DNA of 64,000 nucleotides from an uncultured Lachnospiraceae bacterium (GTDB taxonomy: Bacteria > Bacillota > Clostridia > Lachnospirales > Lachnospiraceae). Both the position numbers and the translations under genes were made by a program. Shown here in pieces: positions 18,890 to 25,791 of this stretch. Where the stretch lies: NCBI GenBank assembly GCA_934320895.1, contig CAKRFY010000005.1, positions 1 through 64,000 on the forward strand, read 5' to 3'. The notes under the pieces were generated by a model. It searched no databases and was not told where the DNA came from. It was given only the letters and a program-made list of their open reading frames with translations. Numbering within the stretch: the stretch's first letter is position 1; every line of letters starts with the position of its first letter.

Positions 18890-18947
18890 TTGACTTCATT
18901 ATATGTAGCAAATATAATATCTTTGTTGCGGTAAGTGATGACTTACC
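18890..18947 (+). promoter_or_regulatory. Strong promoter and leader hairpin of the Tp47-domain gene
   Basis: TTGACT (18890-18895) and TATAAT (18913-18918) are 17 bases apart, a near-consensus housekeeping promoter. The predicted start of the RNA is close to a hairpin, GGTAAGT-GATG-ACTTACC (18930-18947), which could be an operator or an RNA-stabilising 5' hairpin. Confidence 0.75.
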
Positions 18948-18994: not shown

Positions 18995-20602
18995 ATGAGG
19001 AAACTTATTAAAAAAAGTGTGGCGGTTGCGTTGTCAACAGCGCTTCTTGTTACATTGGGACCTGTAACAGATATTGTAAAGACGAGAGCGGCAGCAGATG
19101 ATTATACATATCTCTATGCCGGACTTACATGGGATCAGTACTGGGATGCAGAACAGATATATCTGCAGAGCGGAAAGAGCATGACGGATGCAAATTCTGA
19201 AGCCGATGCAAGATCAGAGATGGATAAAGGTGCTTTTGATGCAGTTTCAAGAGCTACAACAAATCATGGACTTCATAGAGGAAGTTATCAGTGCGATGCA
19301 GTTATTTATGGTGAGGACGGAAGTGAGTTTGAAGTATCACACTGGTCAAAAGATGGAGCTACATTGTATCTTACAGATGGAACAAGCGTAGCTTACAATA
19401 AGGGGACTATTACTAAAGCTGATGGAACACAGACAACTTTAAAAGAGTATAAAGTTAAAGGAATCAAATATGTTCCTGTTGCTGTAAAGACATCAGAACT
19501 TGCAGATTTTAAGAAGGCTTACAAAGTTGTTGAAAATGATGGCGAACTTGTTGGAGGATACAGCGAGGCTAACCTTTCTGCATATGATCTTAAGGCAGAT
19601 GTAACAGCAGATACAAATGGTCTTAAGACAGCAACAGAAAAAAAGGATGGAACATTTGAGTTTAGTGCAAGAAAGACAGGTAAAGATTCAGGTATAAAGG
19701 ATCAGACACTTGCAAAGGCATCAAAACTTAAGGTAGAAGTTAAGGAAGCAAATGGAAGCTACGGAGAGTTTCTTCGTGTGGACATAAATAATGCTGATGA
19801 TGCAGATACATCAAAGGGAGAGGGATATGGAGCTCTCGGAGCAAAGATGCAGGCTGTAAAGTGGACATATTATGGTAAGGATTCTACACGCAAAACAGCA
19901 ATCGCAAATTTTGGAACGAAGTTTGCAGCAGACAACTGGATGCATAAGTCTATGGGAATCCAGCTTGGCCTTACAGATTCATACAGAGCAGCACTTCCGG
20001 GAGGTACTGACGGAACAGGTTACTGGAGTCTTACAGTATATGCACTCGGATTTGAAGATGAGACAGTTGATTTTGAGGTGACAGAGGATAATATCGTTGA
20101 TACGGTAAATATATCTGAGAATGCAGATACAACAAAATTAAGTGACCTTGTAAAAAAAGCAAAATCATTAAAAGAATCTGATTATACAGCAGACAGTTGG
20201 AAAAATTTTGCAGGAGAACTTGAAGAGGCCGAGGAAGAACTCGCAAAGACAAATCATTATCAGGCAATGGTAGATGAGGCTTACAATCATCTCAGTGAAG
20301 CAATCAAAGCTCTTGTAAAGAAAACAAAATCATTGAAGGCACCTGTGTTTGTTAAGGCTACAGCAAAGAAAAAAGCAATGACAGTTACATGGAAAAAAGT
20401 AAGTGGCGCAAAAGAGTATCAGGTACAGTATTCTCTTTCAAAGAACTTTAAGAAAGCTACTGTTAAGACAGCTAAAAAGACTTCTTTAACAGTTAATAAG
20501 TTAAAGACAGGAAACAAGTATTATGTAAGAGTTAAGGCTGTGGCATCTGATAAAAAGCTTAACAGTGGATGGTCAGCAGTAAAGATGGTTAAAGTAAAAT
20601 AA
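18995..20602 (+). CDS. Secreted Tp47-domain protein with FIVAR-like and fibronectin III-like regions
   Basis: The 535-residue protein starts with a signal peptide (about 1-33, ending near TRAAADD). Residues 35-135 match what I recall of the Treponema pallidum Tp47 C domain (YTYLYAGLTWDQYWDAEQIY, then DKGAFDAVSRATTNHGLHRG), and about 160-350 a second Tp47-like beta domain. Residues 370-440 are a helical FIVAR-like module and 445-535 a fibronectin III-like domain (AMTVTWKKVSGAKEYQVQY). No lipobox or sortase motif is present. Tp47 was once reported as a penicillin-binding protein; its physiological role is unclear. It is followed by ApbE and FMN-binding genes, which suggests a part in flavin-based redox at the cell surface. 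Confidence 0.75.
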   Translation: MRKLIKKSVAVALSTALLVTLGPVTDIVKTRAAADDYTYLYAGLTWDQYWDAEQIYLQSGKSMTDANSEADARSEMDKGAFDAVSRATTNHGLHRGSYQCDAVIYGEDGSEFEVSHWSKDGATLYLTDGTSVAYNKGTITKADGTQTTLKEYKVKGIKYVPVAVKTSELADFKKAYKVVENDGELVGGYSEANLSAYDLKADVTADTNGLKTATEKKDGTFEFSARKTGKDSGIKDQTLAKASKLKVEVKEANGSYGEFLRVDINNADDADTSKGEGYGALGAKMQAVKWTYYGKDSTRKTAIANFGTKFAADNWMHKSMGIQLGLTDSYRAALPGGTDGTGYWSLTVYALGFEDETVDFEVTEDNIVDTVNISENADTTKLSDLVKKAKSLKESDYTADSWKNFAGELEEAEEELAKTNHYQAMVDEAYNHLSEAIKALVKKTKSLKAPVFVKATAKKKAMTVTWKKVSGAKEYQVQYSLSKNFKKATVKTAKKTSLTVNKLKTGNKYYVRVKAVASDKKLNSGWSAVKMVKVK

Positions 20603-20647
20603 CAATATATCTGTTAGTAGAATTATTTTTGGGATATTAATGATAGT

Positions 20648-20684
20648 GCAAAAGGGAAGGTTGTTTTTCAGCCTTCCGTTTTGC
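20648..20684 (+). terminator. Hairpin between the Tp47-domain gene and apbE
   Basis: GCAAAAGGGAAGG (20648-20660) pairs with CCTTCCGTTTTGC (20672-20684). There is no T run after it and it ends 6 bases before the apbE ribosome binding site (AAGGGGGGCGG), so it may reduce read-through or protect mRNA rather than fully terminate. Confidence 0.55.
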
Positions 20685-20707
20685 GCGTTAAGGGGGGCGG
20701 AATATTT

Positions 20708-21784
20708 GTGAGACTTAAAAAAATAGTTTTTGGTTTTGCTTTGTGTGCGGCACTTTTTACGGGGTGTCAGAGTGGCGGTGATAAGTCCGGTGTGACGGAT
20801 AAGACAGCTAAGACGAGTAAACAGGGTGATTGTGTTGAGGCTCAGAAAGATATTTTTGCGATGGATACTTATATGACTGTCAAGACTTATGGAAAGGCGG
20901 CAGAAAAGGCGGCTGATGCGGCTGTTGATGAGATAAACAGGCTTGATGATATGTTTAGTACAGGTAATAAAGAGAGTGAAATAGCTATTTTAAATGATAA
21001 TGGAAGTGAGATTTTGTCTAAGGAGACAGGGACTCTTATCGAAAGATCATGTGACCTGTACAAAAGTACAGACGGTGCGTTTAATATAGCTGTTTATCCA
21101 CTCATGAAAGAGTGGGGATTTACAAATGAGAAATACAAGGTTCCTGATGAAAAAACGATAAAAGGTCTTTTAAAAAATATTGATGTTTCAAAGATTAAAT
21201 ATAATAAGAAGAAAAGACAGATAACACTGCCTGAGAATTATAAGATAGATCTCGGTGGTATTGCAAAGGGTTATACATCGTCAAGGCTTATGGAGATATT
21301 TAAGAAATACAAGCTTGATGGCGGCATTGTTTCACTTGGTGGAAATGTTCAGACTTACGGGCATAAAGATGGCAGTAAAAACTGGAAAGTAGCGATTGAA
21401 AATCCTGAGACTTCACCGTTTGATGGTGATTACCTTGGTGTGCTTAAGATTACTGATAAAGCAGTTATCACCTCTGGAAGTTATGAGAGATATTTTGAAA
21501 AAGATGGAAAGAGATATCATCATATTTTAGATCCAAAAACAGGCAGACCAGCAGAAAGTGGTCTTATAAGTGTGTCTGTGATAAGTGATGATGGGACTCT
21601 TGCGGATGGATTGTCAACTTCATTATTTATAATGGGGAAGAAAAAGGGAGAGAAATACTGGCAGGAAAACAGGGATAAATTTGATGTTGTCTGGCTTGAG
21701 GAAGATGGAACTGTGACTATAACAGATGGAATAAAGGATGTGTTTTCATCTGACTTTAAATATAGTGTTGTGAGTGATGAGTAG
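20708..21784 (+). CDS. apbE: FAD:protein FMN transferase, lipoprotein
   Basis: ApbE covalently attaches FMN from FAD to a Ser/Thr in FMN-binding domains outside the membrane. The 358-residue protein begins with a lipoprotein signal (LFTGCQSGG, lipidated Cys about residue 18). Family motifs include AMDTYMTVKTYG, IDLGGIAKGYTSSRL, SGSYERYF, HHILDPKTGRP and the Mg2+-binding ISDDGTLADGLSTSLF. The GTG at 20708 follows AAGGGGGGCGG; upstream in-frame starts overlap that site. Its substrates are very likely the FMN-binding proteins encoded directly downstream, which carry five flavinylation motifs in total. Confidence 0.95.
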   Translation: MRLKKIVFGFALCAALFTGCQSGGDKSGVTDKTAKTSKQGDCVEAQKDIFAMDTYMTVKTYGKAAEKAADAAVDEINRLDDMFSTGNKESEIAILNDNGSEILSKETGTLIERSCDLYKSTDGAFNIAVYPLMKEWGFTNEKYKVPDEKTIKGLLKNIDVSKIKYNKKKRQITLPENYKIDLGGIAKGYTSSRLMEIFKKYKLDGGIVSLGGNVQTYGHKDGSKNWKVAIENPETSPFDGDYLGVLKITDKAVITSGSYERYFEKDGKRYHHILDPKTGRPAESGLISVSVISDDGTLADGLSTSLFIMGKKKGEKYWQENRDKFDVVWLEEDGTVTITDGIKDVFSSDFKYSVVSDE

Positions 21785-21841
21785 ACTTGATCATGTGTGA
21801 AAATTATAAAACTCTTTTAATATAGAAAATACTAGAAAGAT

Positions 21842-21908
21842 ATAGTGTAAAAATCCATATATGTAAGATCTTTCACACTATGCATAAAAAATGTGTGCAG
21901 AAATGGGG
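21842..21908 (+). repeat. Hairpin-plus-SD leader element, copy a
   Basis: TAGTGT...ACACTA forms an outer hairpin, followed by TGCATAAAAAATGTGTGCA and GAAATGGGG, which serves as the ribosome binding site of the next gene (ATG 21915). The TGCAnAAAAAATGTGTGCAG core is shared with copies at 28.7, 32.6 and 35.6 kb. Confidence 0.65.
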
Positions 21909-21914
21909 ATTAGA

Positions 21915-23717
21915 ATGAAGGAAAAATTTTTAGAAAAGGCTAAGCCGTTTGTTTTTATTTTGCCATCTGTTCTTGTAGCAGCTTTTTCTATCGGTGGCTT
22001 TTTTATAGGTAGCGATATTGCAGCAAAAAACAGTCTGTTAAAGGGGAGCTTGGGAAATGATGTAGTAAATGAAGCAAATGCTCAGGAAAATAGTGGTGCT
22101 TATGAGAATGAGACAGATAAGAAGAAAACAGTTCAGAGGGTTGTCAAAATTGATACTGCCGGACTTAAAAATGGTACTTTTTCAGGTTCAGCCAGAGGAT
22201 ATGGCGGGACTGTCGGCGTGAAAGTTACTATATATGGTGGAAAAATAAAGAGTATAATAATAGTTTCGCATTCAGGGGAAACACCGGCGTTTTTTGAAAA
22301 AGCAAAGGCGGTGGTTACAAAGATACTCGCTTCACAGAGCGTAAACGTGGATACAGTGTCAGGTGCTACATATTCTTCAAATGGTATAATAAATGCTGTG
22401 GCTGATGCTCTTTCAAAGGCGGGAGATAAGACTGTAAGGACAAAGAAAGCTGCTATAAAAAAGACGGTAGATGTTAGTATAAGCAAGGTAAAAAAAACAA
22501 AGGTAAAAAGCGGAAAACCTGCTGATGGAGTGTTTGAGGGCAGCAGTGTATGTGAAAAATTTGGATATACGGTAAGTTTGAAAGCAAAATTTAAAGACGG
22601 AGAGCCTGCGGCAGTCTATGATATGAAGATGCTTAACAATAGTGACAGTTCAAATAATGCTTATATGACAAAAGCATGGCGTGGCATGGTTAAACGTATA
22701 ATAGGTGGCAATGTCGGTGTAAATGCATCAGATATAGATATAGTGTCAGGCGCTACATATTCTTCAAATGCAATCCTTAATGCATATTTTGATGCACGCA
22801 ATAAAGCTATTGCAAAGGCTGATGGAACAAAGATAAAATCTACGCCAAAGCCTAAGATAGTGCCTTCAAAGAAACCGACAGCAGTAAAGGTGCCACAACC
22901 GGCTAAAGTACCTGATGGTGATATAGCAGATGGAAAATACAGGGTAAGTGCTGTATGTGAACCGGATGAAGATGAGGATTTTGAAAAATATACGCTCAGT
23001 GCGTCATTTACATTTTTAAAAGGTAAATGTATAGATATAGCTCATTTTTCTTCGACAGCCGAAAGTAATAAGAATTATTATATGAAAGCGGCAAATGGGG
23101 ATGGTAAAGTAAAAGGTGTTGCAGCACAGATATTAAATAAACAGTCAGCAGATGGTATAAGTGCTGTATCTGGTGCGACATGTTCATCTAAAACAATCGT
23201 GAAACTTTATGTTAAAGCACTTGAAGAAGCAGCTAAGAAAGCGGGGGTAAATAAGACTCCAATGCCTTCTGAAAGTCCTGTACCGACATTGCAGCCTGAA
23301 AATACATCTTCTCCACAGGATACCCAGACTCCAATGCCGGCGGCAACATCTGATGTGTTACCAAGTGCAGAACCGGCACCGGAGCCTAGTCTTATTCCAT
23401 TAAATTCAGGAACATACAACGAGACGATAACTGTATATCCAAATGAATCTAATGAATTTAGAGAGTATACGCTGACAGCAGATGTTTTATTTGATGACAA
23501 TCGTTTCTGCGGTTTTGAGAATGTGACTTTGTCTGATGAAACAAACAGATTTTATTATAATAAAGCAGTAAATGGAACAAAAAAGAAGCCGGGACTTATA
23601 TCACAGATAAATGCAAAACAAAATGATGAACTTGATGCTGTATCGGGAGCTACATGTACATCAAATGCACTTATAGAATTGTTTTCAAAGGCGTGGAATG
23701 AGGCTAAAGTAAAATAG
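21915..23717 (+). CDS. Surface protein with four FMN-binding domains
   Basis: The 600-residue protein has one N-terminal membrane segment (about 8-32), then four FMN_bind domains ending near residues 170, 300, 435 and 600. Each holds a flavinylation motif: VSGATYSSN twice, VSGATCSSK and VSGATCTSN, with the modified Thr expected in SGAT. Pro- and Ser-rich linkers separate domains 2-3 and 3-4, typical of proteins that span a cell wall. The arrangement resembles PplA-type and multi-flavinylated proteins of extracellular electron transfer. The ATG at 21915 follows GGGGA; an earlier in-frame ATG at 21891 lies inside the leader hairpin. Neighbours supply ApbE and a membrane iron-sulphur protein. 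Confidence 0.9.
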   Translation: MKEKFLEKAKPFVFILPSVLVAAFSIGGFFIGSDIAAKNSLLKGSLGNDVVNEANAQENSGAYENETDKKKTVQRVVKIDTAGLKNGTFSGSARGYGGTVGVKVTIYGGKIKSIIIVSHSGETPAFFEKAKAVVTKILASQSVNVDTVSGATYSSNGIINAVADALSKAGDKTVRTKKAAIKKTVDVSISKVKKTKVKSGKPADGVFEGSSVCEKFGYTVSLKAKFKDGEPAAVYDMKMLNNSDSSNNAYMTKAWRGMVKRIIGGNVGVNASDIDIVSGATYSSNAILNAYFDARNKAIAKADGTKIKSTPKPKIVPSKKPTAVKVPQPAKVPDGDIADGKYRVSAVCEPDEDEDFEKYTLSASFTFLKGKCIDIAHFSSTAESNKNYYMKAANGDGKVKGVAAQILNKQSADGISAVSGATCSSKTIVKLYVKALEEAAKKAGVNKTPMPSESPVPTLQPENTSSPQDTQTPMPAATSDVLPSAEPAPEPSLIPLNSGTYNETITVYPNESNEFREYTLTADVLFDDNRFCGFENVTLSDETNRFYYNKAVNGTKKKPGLISQINAKQNDELDAVSGATCTSNALIELFSKAWNEAKVK

Positions 23718-23770
23718 GGGTGTTTGGATTACATGGTGATTAGTTTGTTTAAGAGAAAAGAGGACAAAAG

Positions 23771-24175
23771 TTGAAGATATTTATAGCAAAGAGTGTAAAT
23801 CTTTTGCTTGTCGTAGGGATAATATTTGTTTATTGTACGCAGACAGGCAAAATTCAGAAAGAAACATCAACTGATATGGGTGTGGACAATTCACAGTCGT
23901 ATTTTGCGGATGATGGTATATATGAGGGGAGTGGTGATGGATTTGGAGGAAAGATAAAGGTGCGCCTTGCCGTGAAGGACAAAAAACTTCAAAGTGCAGA
24001 GATATTATCGGCGGAAAACGAGACAAAAGATTATCTTGAATCAGCAAAAAAAATACTTGACGATGCAGTAAAACAACAGTCCACAGATGTAGATACAGTG
24101 TCTGGTGCGACATTATCGTCAAATGGCATAATCAGTGCTATGAAGGATGCACTTGCGAATGGAAAGGAACAATAG
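23771..24175 (+). CDS. Small FMN-binding protein
   Basis: The 134-residue protein has an N-terminal membrane anchor (about 5-24) and a single FMN_bind domain with the motif DTVSGATLSSNG near residue 110. It starts at TTG 23771 behind AAGAGGAC; no ATG is available in frame. It lies 4 bases before the iron-sulphur membrane protein gene, a pairing seen where a flavinylated domain receives electrons from a NapH- or NosR-like membrane protein. Confidence 0.9.
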   Translation: MKIFIAKSVNLLLVVGIIFVYCTQTGKIQKETSTDMGVDNSQSYFADDGIYEGSGDGFGGKIKVRLAVKDKKLQSAEILSAENETKDYLESAKKILDDAVKQQSTDVDTVSGATLSSNGIISAMKDALANGKEQ

Positions 24176-24179
24176 ATAA

Positions 24180-24953
24180 ATGGCAAATGTAAAAACAAAA
24201 TTGAAGTGTTTACAGATATCAAGGATAGTTATACAGCTTGCATTTTTTATATTTATGCCGTCACTGTTTTCGCAGGCTTTTGCAGGCGTAAAGGAAGCAG
24301 CGGCACTTATGGGAAAAGGTCAGCCATTGAAAGAATCTGACTTTGCGGTAAAACTGCTCATATTATGTACTATTACTGTGATTTTTGGAAGGATTTTCTG
24401 TGGATTTATGTGCTCATTTGGAGCGATAGGTGACTGGTTTTATATGCTCTCTGGGTTTATTCAGAAAAAAACGGGTATAAAATTTCCAAAGATTTCAGAA
24501 AAATACCAGATTATTATGCAAAAATTTAAGTACATCATATTATTGCTGATTGTAGTTATATGTTTTGTTGGAAATGGTGAGTACATTACTAAATACAGTC
24601 CGTGGACGGTATTTTCGCTTATAACACAGAGAAATTTCAAGATAGGAGCTTATGCAACAGGCATTTTTCTGCTTATTCTTATAATAATAGGAATGATGTT
24701 AAAAGAGAGATTTTTTTGTCAGTTTCTATGTCCGTTGGGGGCGGTATTTTCACTTCTTCCAAAAATTCCTTTGTTTCATGTGAAAAAGAAAGGGCAGCAG
24801 TGTTTTAATGGTTGTAAGGCATGTACAAATAAGTGTCCCGTTAATCTTAAGTATGATGAAGCCGGAATGAGAGAGGGTGAGTGTATAAGCTGTGGAAGAT
24901 GTTTTATGGTCTGCCCACACAGGATGAAGAAAAATACTGCCGCAAAATCATAA
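24180..24953 (+). CDS. NapH-like membrane iron-sulphur protein
   Basis: The 257-residue protein has four or five membrane helices with two CxxxC motifs at helix ends (FCGFMCSFGA and FFCQFLCPLGA), as in Fer4_5 proteins such as NapH and NosR. The C-terminal cytosolic tail carries two 4Fe-4S clusters in CFNGCKACTNKCP and CISCGRCFMVCP. Such proteins carry electrons across the membrane. Here the partners are the flavinylated proteins just upstream, so I infer electron flow from the cytosol or quinones to external FMN domains. The final electron acceptor is not encoded nearby. Confidence 0.9.
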   Translation: MANVKTKLKCLQISRIVIQLAFFIFMPSLFSQAFAGVKEAAALMGKGQPLKESDFAVKLLILCTITVIFGRIFCGFMCSFGAIGDWFYMLSGFIQKKTGIKFPKISEKYQIIMQKFKYIILLLIVVICFVGNGEYITKYSPWTVFSLITQRNFKIGAYATGIFLLILIIIGMMLKERFFCQFLCPLGAVFSLLPKIPLFHVKKKGQQCFNGCKACTNKCPVNLKYDEAGMREGECISCGRCFMVCPHRMKKNTAAKS

Positions 24954-25167
24954 GATTTCTTATAAAATAAAAATCACAGCAGCGTTTCATGGTTCAGACA
25001 ATACTTTTATAAGATATGCCTGTTGGTACATAAATAGATAGAGCGTGTTAAGATTATAATATATTGCAATGTATATTTTAATATTACCGGAATATTATTT
25101 AAAGATAGCATAAATAATAAACTGACCTTATTATACAGGGATGGTTAAAGATTTATTGGAGGTGCGT

Positions 25168-25791
25168 ATGCTTAACTATATCTGGGCGTTTATGATACTT
25201 GGAGGACTGGCGTATGGTGTGACATGCGGTCAGGCAAAGGCTCTGTCGGATTGTATTATTGATAGTTCGGGAGAAGCAGTGTCACTTGCAATTACGATGC
25301 TTGGTGTTATGGCGATGTGGTGTGGTATAATGGAAGTTGCAAAACAGTCGGGACTTATGGATAAAATGACAAAACTTTTGTCCCCGGCTGTTCATTTTTT
25401 ATTTCCTGAAATTGATAAAAAACATATTGTAAATGAATATATAACGGCCAATATAGTTGCAAATATGCTTGGCCTTGGCTGGGCTGCAACGCCTATGGGA
25501 TTAAAGGCGATAAAAGAAATGGCAAAGCTAGAGTGTGACAGACTCGTCAAAGAGGGTATTGACATATCAAAGGTAAAGTTAAAAGCAAGCAATGAGATGT
25601 GTACATTTCTTGTTATAAATATATCATCACTACAACTGATACCTGTAAATATAATAGCATATAGAAGCCAGTATGGCAGTGTTAATCCTGTGAGCATAGT
25701 TGTTCCAGGTTTGATAGCAACAGGTGTAAGTACATTTGTGGCAGTGATATTTTGCAGAGTGATGTCAAAGGTAAGAAAGACAGGATTATAG
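25168..25791 (+). CDS. spmA: Spore maturation protein A-like membrane protein
   Basis: The 207-residue protein has several membrane helices and the Gate-domain pattern of SpmA (MAMWCGIMEVAKQSGLMDKM; EYITANIVANMLGLGWAATP). SpmA is needed for spore core dehydration in Bacillus, but homologues also occur in non-sporulating bacteria. It usually precedes spmB; none follows here. The ATG at 25168 follows TTGGAGG. Upstream, 24954-25167 holds an inverted repeat TAATATT-ACCGG-AATATTA (25079-25097) and no gene. Confidence 0.85.
   Translation: MLNYIWAFMILGGLAYGVTCGQAKALSDCIIDSSGEAVSLAITMLGVMAMWCGIMEVAKQSGLMDKMTKLLSPAVHFLFPEIDKKHIVNEYITANIVANMLGLGWAATPMGLKAIKEMAKLECDRLVKEGIDISKVKLKASNEMCTFLVINISSLQLIPVNIIAYRSQYGSVNPVSIVVPGLIATGVSTFVAVIFCRVMSKVRKTGL

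Follow-up and report, generated by a model that had tools for sequence, protein, structure and literature searches.

A Tp47-domain gene heads a flavinylation gene cluster

A stretch of 64,000 nucleotides from an uncultured Lachnospiraceae bacterium (contig CAKRFY010000005.1 of assembly GCA_934320895.1; hereafter the window) carries, between positions 18995 and 24953, five + strand genes in which a Tp47-domain protein stands next to a flavinylation module. Tp47 is a leading syphilis antigen whose cellular job is unsettled. Open reading frames (ORFs) and Pfam matches gave, in order, the Tp47-domain protein, the flavin mononucleotide (FMN) transferase ApbE, two FMN_bind proteins (the first with four such domains, the second with one) and a NapH-like iron-sulphur (Fe-S) membrane protein, with intergenic gaps of 78, 106, 53 and 4 bp. 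An earlier reading made from the sequence alone (the original prediction) had proposed these five genes, and the ORF list with Pfam and NCBIfam searches bore out both their positions and their domain types.

The first gene (18995..20602) encodes a secreted protein of 535 amino acids (aa), with matches to PF14889 (E 1.3e-69) and PF14888 (E 2.5e-75). An N-terminal hydrophobic segment (residues 9-27) is followed by Tp47 domain a (35-198), Tp47 domain c (205-370), a FIVAR-like stretch that stays below cut-off, and an fn3 domain (E 5.2e-8). Domains a and c both score far above the Pfam cut-off, which places the protein in the Tp47 family. Among the matches listed by a fold search, the closest solved structure was 1o75, that of Treponema pallidum Tp47, with 23% identity in the aligned part; a model of domain a alone reached a mean pLDDT of 75.9. 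Tp47-type proteins are called heads below.

The second gene (20681..21784) encodes ApbE, a flavin adenine dinucleotide (FAD):protein FMN transferase (PF02424, E 9.9e-86) that is a probable lipoprotein, judging from an LFTGC sequence read by eye. The third (21891..23717) encodes a 608-aa protein with four stretches matching PF04205 (E 3.4e-38), a hydrophobic stretch near its N-terminus (21-39) and SGAT at residues 157, 286, 427 and 585, within DTVSGAT, DIVSGAT, SAVSGAT and DAVSGAT. The motif given in a passage of PMC12052999 for ApbE is D-x-x-[S/T]-G-A-[S/T]. The four SGAT motifs originally predicted are thus all present; the third starts with Ser in place of the Asp of that motif. The fourth gene (23771..24175) encodes a 134-aa FMN_bind protein (PF04205, E 1.1e-16) with an N-terminal hydrophobic stretch (3-21) and SGAT at residue 111, as DTVSGAT, bringing the full motif to four of the five sites in the cluster. 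The FMN_bind part of the cluster also matches the NCBIfam entry lipo_FMN_PplA weakly (E 9.1e-8, under cut-off). The last gene (24180..24953) encodes the 257-aa NapH-like protein (Fer4_5, PF12801, E 1.1e-13), whose top NCBIfam match, under the cut-off at E 3.9e-24, is the NapH/MauN family TIGR02163 and which has four hydrophobic stretches and 15 cysteines, with cysteine motifs at its C-terminal end. A hydrophobic stretch was defined as 19 residues above 1.6 on the Kyte-Doolittle scale, and membrane helices were judged by hydropathy only.

Meheust et al. 2021 (PMC8238504) define NapH-like flavinylation systems and multi-flavinylated proteins. A PF12801 protein with several predicted transmembrane stretches is here clustered with FMN_bind and ApbE genes, and the four matched stretches of the 608-aa protein exceed the single FMN_bind domain above which a protein is called multi-flavinylated. 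Read from its sequence, the window cluster is a NapH-like, multi-flavinylated system by those definitions. In agreement with the earlier reading, a Pfam scan of 8 ORFs between 17796 and 27214 found no NADH dehydrogenase; nor was there an iron or haem transporter among them.

Tp47 genes are linked to flavin genes in related bacteria

We collected 53 Tp47 loci by a degenerate-pattern scan over one genome per species (84,980 species), a set that is biased towards relatives of the window protein. Most of them come from Lachnospiraceae; the rest include Faecalibacterium, Coriobacteriia and Thomasclavelia. A separate FMN_bind ORF was present near Tp47 in 47 of the 53 loci (within 5 kb in 45), NapH in 44 and ApbE in 39; at least one separate gene of the flavin module (FMN_bind, ApbE or NapH) was present in 48. 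In the closest named relative found, Butyribacter intestini (L013), the Tp47 protein is 81% identical to that of the window and its gene is separated by 300 bp from an FMN_bind gene and by 2.6 kb from NapH; ApbE was not found in the fetched stretch of this locus. With T for Tp47, A for ApbE, F for FMN_bind and N for NapH, gene orders included T-A-F-F-N, F-N-A-T-F, A-F-F-N-T and T-F-F-N-A, and divergent strands were also seen. Because order and strand differ among the loci, the linkage of Tp47 to flavin genes has survived rearrangement. Besides Tp47, the 53 proteins contained FMN_bind (14), FIVAR (17), Shr-like_HID (16) and fn3 (9) domains at E <= 0.001, so that Tp47 and FMN_bind share one polypeptide in 14/53.

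Two loci of Eubacterium ramulus (L047:3280-6165 and L049:5483-7951) encode, adjoining the Tp47 protein, a second head protein with FMN_bind and a Tp47-like domain, accompanied in L047 by choline-binding repeats. An apparent ApbE-Tp47 fusion in a metagenome assembly (L020:4058-6343) was not counted: its ApbE match spans no more than positions 1-122 of the 266 in the profile and continues into the end of a Tp47-like domain, and the frame is probably a chimera or a decayed gene. Five Faecalibacterium loci (L022, L023, L025, L030 and L036) have a cluster of Tp47, two FMN_bind genes and NapH, in that order. Flavin-linked extracellular electron transfer (EET) has been reported for Faecalibacterium, and these clusters are candidate genes for it in that genus.

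To avoid the bias of the pattern scan, we ran the Pfam profile of Tp47 domain c and the window NapH over 397 Lachnospiraceae genomes. Tp47 was found in 12 of them, including the search centre (G001), itself chosen for its Tp47; of these 12, the pattern scan had already yielded 10. NapH matches reached E <= 1e-15 in 66 genomes and E <= 2.6e-38 in 40, termed close NapH, the next genome standing at 3.4e-23. Close NapH was present in all 12 Tp47 genomes versus 28 of the 385 without Tp47 (hypergeometric P 2e-13; 2e-12 without the centre), and the same test with all 66 NapH genomes gave P 1.8e-10 (1e-9 without the centre). The Tp47_c match lay 0.8-5.5 kb from NapH in 11 of the 12 Tp47 genomes; in the twelfth, an Anaerostipes genome (G644), the two are on different contigs. 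The enrichment of Tp47 genes near FMN_bind and ApbE that had been predicted is strongly borne out by the 48 of 53 loci with a separate flavin gene, by the 14 of 53 Tp47 proteins that match FMN_bind and by this sample, where 12/12 versus 28/385 genomes have close NapH and 11/12 are linked.

Other samples contained few Tp47 genes. A phylum-wide sample had one in 398 genomes, the centre itself, and another family-level sample had two in 99, the centre and the genome (G880) of locus L043. In a sample of the Faecalibacterium family, Tp47 passed the cut-off in 1 of 119 genomes, again the centre, and NapH was found in 4 of 119, one of these with Tp47; beyond its centre this sample is uninformative. 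A weak Tp47_c match (E 6e-4, below cut-off) lies there in a 1296-aa open frame (G996:C22:23030-23482). Tp47 had no match in 72,556 plasmid records.

A divergent Tp47-like domain accompanies other flavin modules

We fetched 20 loci from the 28 genomes that have close NapH and lack Tp47 by PF14888. Ten large neighbours in these loci were scanned with Pfam and gave few matches, one being a histidine kinase; in L090, Tp47_a was barely over its cut-off (26.3 versus 25 bits). NCBIfam searches of six proteins gave nothing over cut-off in the region concerned. A profile built from eleven regions (four in Tp47 loci, the other seven in loci lacking Tp47) defined a domain of about 225 residues, hereafter the Tp47-like domain (TLD), a distant relative of Tp47 domains a and c found in secreted proteins beside flavinylated membrane proteins (L080-L097, L100-L118). 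Comparison of the TLD and Tp47 profiles gave a probability of 99.1% (E 7.6e-19, 194 columns). TLD scored above 100 bits in 13 of the 20 Tp47-less NapH loci and in 25 of the 53 Tp47 proteins.

Within the 397 Lachnospiraceae genomes, TLD was present in 38, of which 25 have close NapH (P 5e-20), and Tp47 or TLD was present in 29 of the 40 close-NapH genomes. Seven of the remaining 11 have their NapH match within an open frame of 427-601 aa, and these frames may be FMN-NapH fusions. From the 13 genomes with TLD but no close NapH came 15 loci, some from close kin; in 14 of them FMN_bind is adjacent to TLD or within the TLD protein (exception, L102). Four further TLD loci come from NapH genomes in which TLD lies apart or on another contig; one of them, L117, has the whole module nearby.

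The membrane partner can be exchanged

NapH was not found in the fetched flanks of three Tp47 loci (L006, L012 and L014), in each of which a membrane protein ending in FMN_bind adjoins Tp47 and ApbE. The membrane part of these proteins aligns with ten proteins from other loci, and two histidines are kept in all 13. Seven of the ten were scanned: PF04205 was over cut-off in all seven, and Ferric_reduct (PF01794) was found in three at E 1.3e-5 or better, two of them over cut-off. As judged from sequence, these FMN_bind-ending membrane proteins are of the MsrQ-like type of Meheust et al. (PMC8238504); the assignment of L006, L012 and L014 to this type rests on the alignment, because Pfam gave no ferric-reductase match for them. 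NapH is thus swapped for an MsrQ-like protein and the Tp47-type head stays, and the head therefore appears to belong to the flavin end of the chain rather than to one membrane protein.

A near-invariant heptapeptide resembles the ApbE site

Domain a of the window protein contains the heptapeptide DAVSRAT (residues 82-88; 19238..19258, + strand), which differs from the ApbE motif only at the glycine; T. pallidum Tp47 in PDB 1o75 has DAVSRAT too. Tp47 domain a reads D-[A/T/V]-V-[S/T]-R-A-T, with D, V, R, A and T present in 55 of 55 aligned domains. Among 62 TLD copies, D was kept in 61, S or T in 62, A in 59 and T in 60 (plus one S), the fifth place being S or T in 58. Glycine at the fifth place was found in none of the 55 Tp47 and none of the 62 TLD domains. 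In ordinary proteins of these loci it occupied that place in 257 of the 285 FMN_bind domains with a readable motif, and in 12 of 16 readable FMN_bind domains within head proteins (T in 3, S in 1); these shares omit unreadable domains (20 ordinary, 4 head), and the profile was built from SGAT domains. The head-protein domains with S or T for the motif glycine are in L009, L015, L041 and L043.

The likeness of DAVSRAT to DAVSGAT suggested that Tp47 domain a might be a disguised or circularly permuted FMN_bind domain; this candidate was rejected on the comparisons below, with the heptapeptide itself kept as a lead. Profile comparison found no wider similarity: TLD against FMN_bind aligned the heptapeptide alone (probability 4.7%, 11 columns), and Tp47 against FMN_bind gave a probability of 1.2% with an alignment away from the heptapeptide. 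No FMN_bind protein was among the 50 matches listed by either fold search (two-domain model; domain a alone).

Flanking sequences and gene starts

A sequence that is promoter-like by consensus only, TTGACT-17-TATAAT (18890-18918, + strand), precedes the Tp47 start and agrees at 11 of 12 positions; the stretch holds 25 such matches against a shuffle mean of 25.2, that is, no excess. The start codons used for ApbE and for the multi-FMN and small FMN_bind proteins are the first after a stop, and the real starts may differ. The next gene after the cluster, 187 bp downstream, encodes a Gate-domain (nucleoside recognition) protein (25141-25791). It is present in the Butyribacter intestini locus too and is probably unrelated to the cluster.

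Tp47-family proteins as probable outer partners of flavin carriers

The gene set, the recurrent linkage of Tp47, the fusions and the occurrence of a wider family beside two types of membrane protein are read directly from the genomes. On this evidence the role that best suits the Tp47 family is that of outer partners to flavinylated electron carriers of the membrane, and we consider it likely that the five window genes, a putative operon, make up one electron-transfer unit with Tp47 as the secreted outer partner of a flavin relay. In such a unit the NapH-like Fe-S protein would draw electrons from a reduced carrier in the cell or membrane and pass them to flavins bound covalently outside. ApbE would put one FMN on each of the five SGAT sites of the one- and four-domain FMN_bind proteins, which would form a short outward relay through five covalent FMNs. 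The Tp47 head would dock on this relay and meet the final acceptor or, if the flow is reversed, the donor at the cell surface. Another multi-FMN protein, described in PMC10339131, has three flavins that share a single potential of -184 mV; the reduced protein reacts with oxygen, and in a passage of that paper its authors see no sign of directionality.

Several points weigh against this reading. The direction of electron flow and the contact of Tp47 with the relay are both conjectural. To our knowledge no cofactor of Tp47 domains has been described, and the structural matches listed suggest none. Five loci (L002, L003, L011, L020 and L048) have no separate flavin partner in the fetched stretch; in the three from Anaerostipes (L002, L003 and L011) no flavin-module gene was found in the fetched flanks, and the 8 neighbours scanned there include no flavin gene. 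The genomes of these three have FMN_bind genes elsewhere, as do 47 of 47 genomes searched (covering 47 of the 53 loci), which alone is little informative, such a gene often being RnfG-sized. Three TLD loci (L115, L116 and L118) have no flavin gene in the fetched stretch, two of them being short contigs. The close-NapH threshold was picked at a gap in the list after the list was known and sets aside the 26 of 66 more distant genomes, and the co-occurrence P values treat kindred genomes as independent and so overstate independence.

Among other explanations, the heads could be receptors that capture a substrate such as haem, iron complexes or a quinone and present it, without handling electrons themselves, to a flavin relay that does the chemistry, which we regard as possible but unlikely. 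A passage of Meheust et al. (PMC8238504) places flavinylation genes near iron transporters. A receptor would also fit the Shr-like_HID domain, named for the haemoglobin-interacting domain of the haem-binding protein Shr, in 16 of the 53 Tp47 proteins, the FIVAR domain in 17, and the invariant His, Arg and Trp residues, which resemble a ligand site; yet Shr-like_HID is missing from the window protein and from 37 of the 53, and the 8 ORFs scanned around the cluster hold no iron or haem transporter. T. pallidum Tp47 has been credited with a penicillin-binding or carboxypeptidase role, and this precedent, together with the family name, raises the idea that Tp47 acts on peptidoglycan and merely places the flavin proteins in the wall. 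Wall-related parts do occur in the 53 proteins: 17 have FIVAR, 3 choline-binding repeats, 1 SLH and, by a rough pattern, about 10 sorting-like tails. The wall-binding parts form domains of their own, however, and many Tp47 proteins do without them. The motifs of serine penicillin-binding proteins are poorly kept: no column of the alignment retains K[ST]G in more than half of the domains, and S-x-x-K stands at a fixed column in only 55% of 56, although whether Tp47 requires them is a separate question. The recurring neighbours are flavin genes, in a neighbour survey that was aimed at flavin genes. We regard the wall role as improbable.

The heptapeptide D-x-x-[S/T]-x-A-T of Tp47 and TLD would take on another meaning if it were itself an ApbE site and Tp47 carried FMN. 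Its near-invariance in 55 Tp47 and 62 TLD domains fits such a site, as does S or T at the glycine place in 4 of 16 FMN_bind domains of head proteins. The motif glycine is moreover not strict, as its change to Ala keeps about 50% flavinylation according to a passage of PMC12052999. Glycine is nevertheless absent from that place in every Tp47 and TLD copy aligned, the profile comparison found no similarity to FMN_bind beyond the heptapeptide, and the 50 matches listed per fold search include no FMN_bind protein, which leaves this explanation quite improbable in our view. That the linkage reflects shared ancestry or chance and has no functional meaning would suit the origin of almost all loci in related Firmicutes and Coriobacteriia and the three unlinked Anaerostipes loci. 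The varied gene orders, the fusions, the exchange of membrane partner and the same pattern in the divergent TLD family argue against it, and we give it hardly any credence.

With Tp47 as outer partner of flavin carriers, a link that recurs in related bacteria becomes a clue to the role of Tp47. A linkage that in most loci outlasts rearrangement and that spans two membrane entry proteins would turn the Tp47 question away from wall enzymology and towards redox chemistry at the surface. The loci also point to genes that may serve flavin-dependent electron transfer in anaerobes of the gut, among them Faecalibacterium.

Treponema pallidum and comparison with known systems

The original prediction had named T. 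pallidum TP0572 as an FMN_bind lipoprotein encoded close to Tp47. The annotation of TP0572 agrees: its entry in PMC5607219 (622652-623734, 1083 bp) describes a putative membrane protein with an FMN-binding domain. TPANIC_0574 is Tp47 according to the relevant entry of PMC5956850, and tags two numbers apart suggest that the two genes are close. At about 360 codons, TP0572 resembles, in size alone, the flavin membrane proteins beside TLD genes (350-467 aa). Among the papers listed in our literature searches none joins Tp47 with flavin; three contain both words, which in the one consulted stand in unrelated passages. The name Tp47 is absent from the main texts of PMC8238504 and PMC11334425, and the supplements of the former may hold Tp47 rows. 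The widest form of the proposal, in which Tp47 and its divergent relatives are redox heads for flavinylated carriers, T. pallidum Tp47 works with TP0572, and the heptapeptide is a variant ApbE site through which Tp47 carries covalent FMN, is a long shot.

Compared with T. pallidum Tp47 (TP0574; 1o75), the window protein is extended by a FIVAR-like and an fn3 part. With the flavin-based EET of Listeria the cluster has in common ApbE, there called FmnB, and an FMN_bind protein on the outside, but it differs from that system in its NapH-like entry protein, its Tp47 head and the absence of an NADH dehydrogenase among the 8 ORFs scanned. In related loci, Ferric_reduct-type membrane proteins next to Tp47 or its TLD relatives resemble the MsrQ-like systems of PMC8238504; they are not in the window, and where they occur membrane part and FMN_bind form a single protein. 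The likeness is closest to the NapH-like systems of that paper, where a PF12801 protein is clustered with FMN_bind and ApbE, proteins have more than one FMN_bind domain, and the clusters include large proteins that lack annotation and carry domains for wall binding (SLH, Rib, FIVAR, LysM). The window differs from them in its Tp47 protein, a family with no mention in that main text. The flavin module is of a known kind; what is new is its link to Tp47 and the divergent family that shares it.

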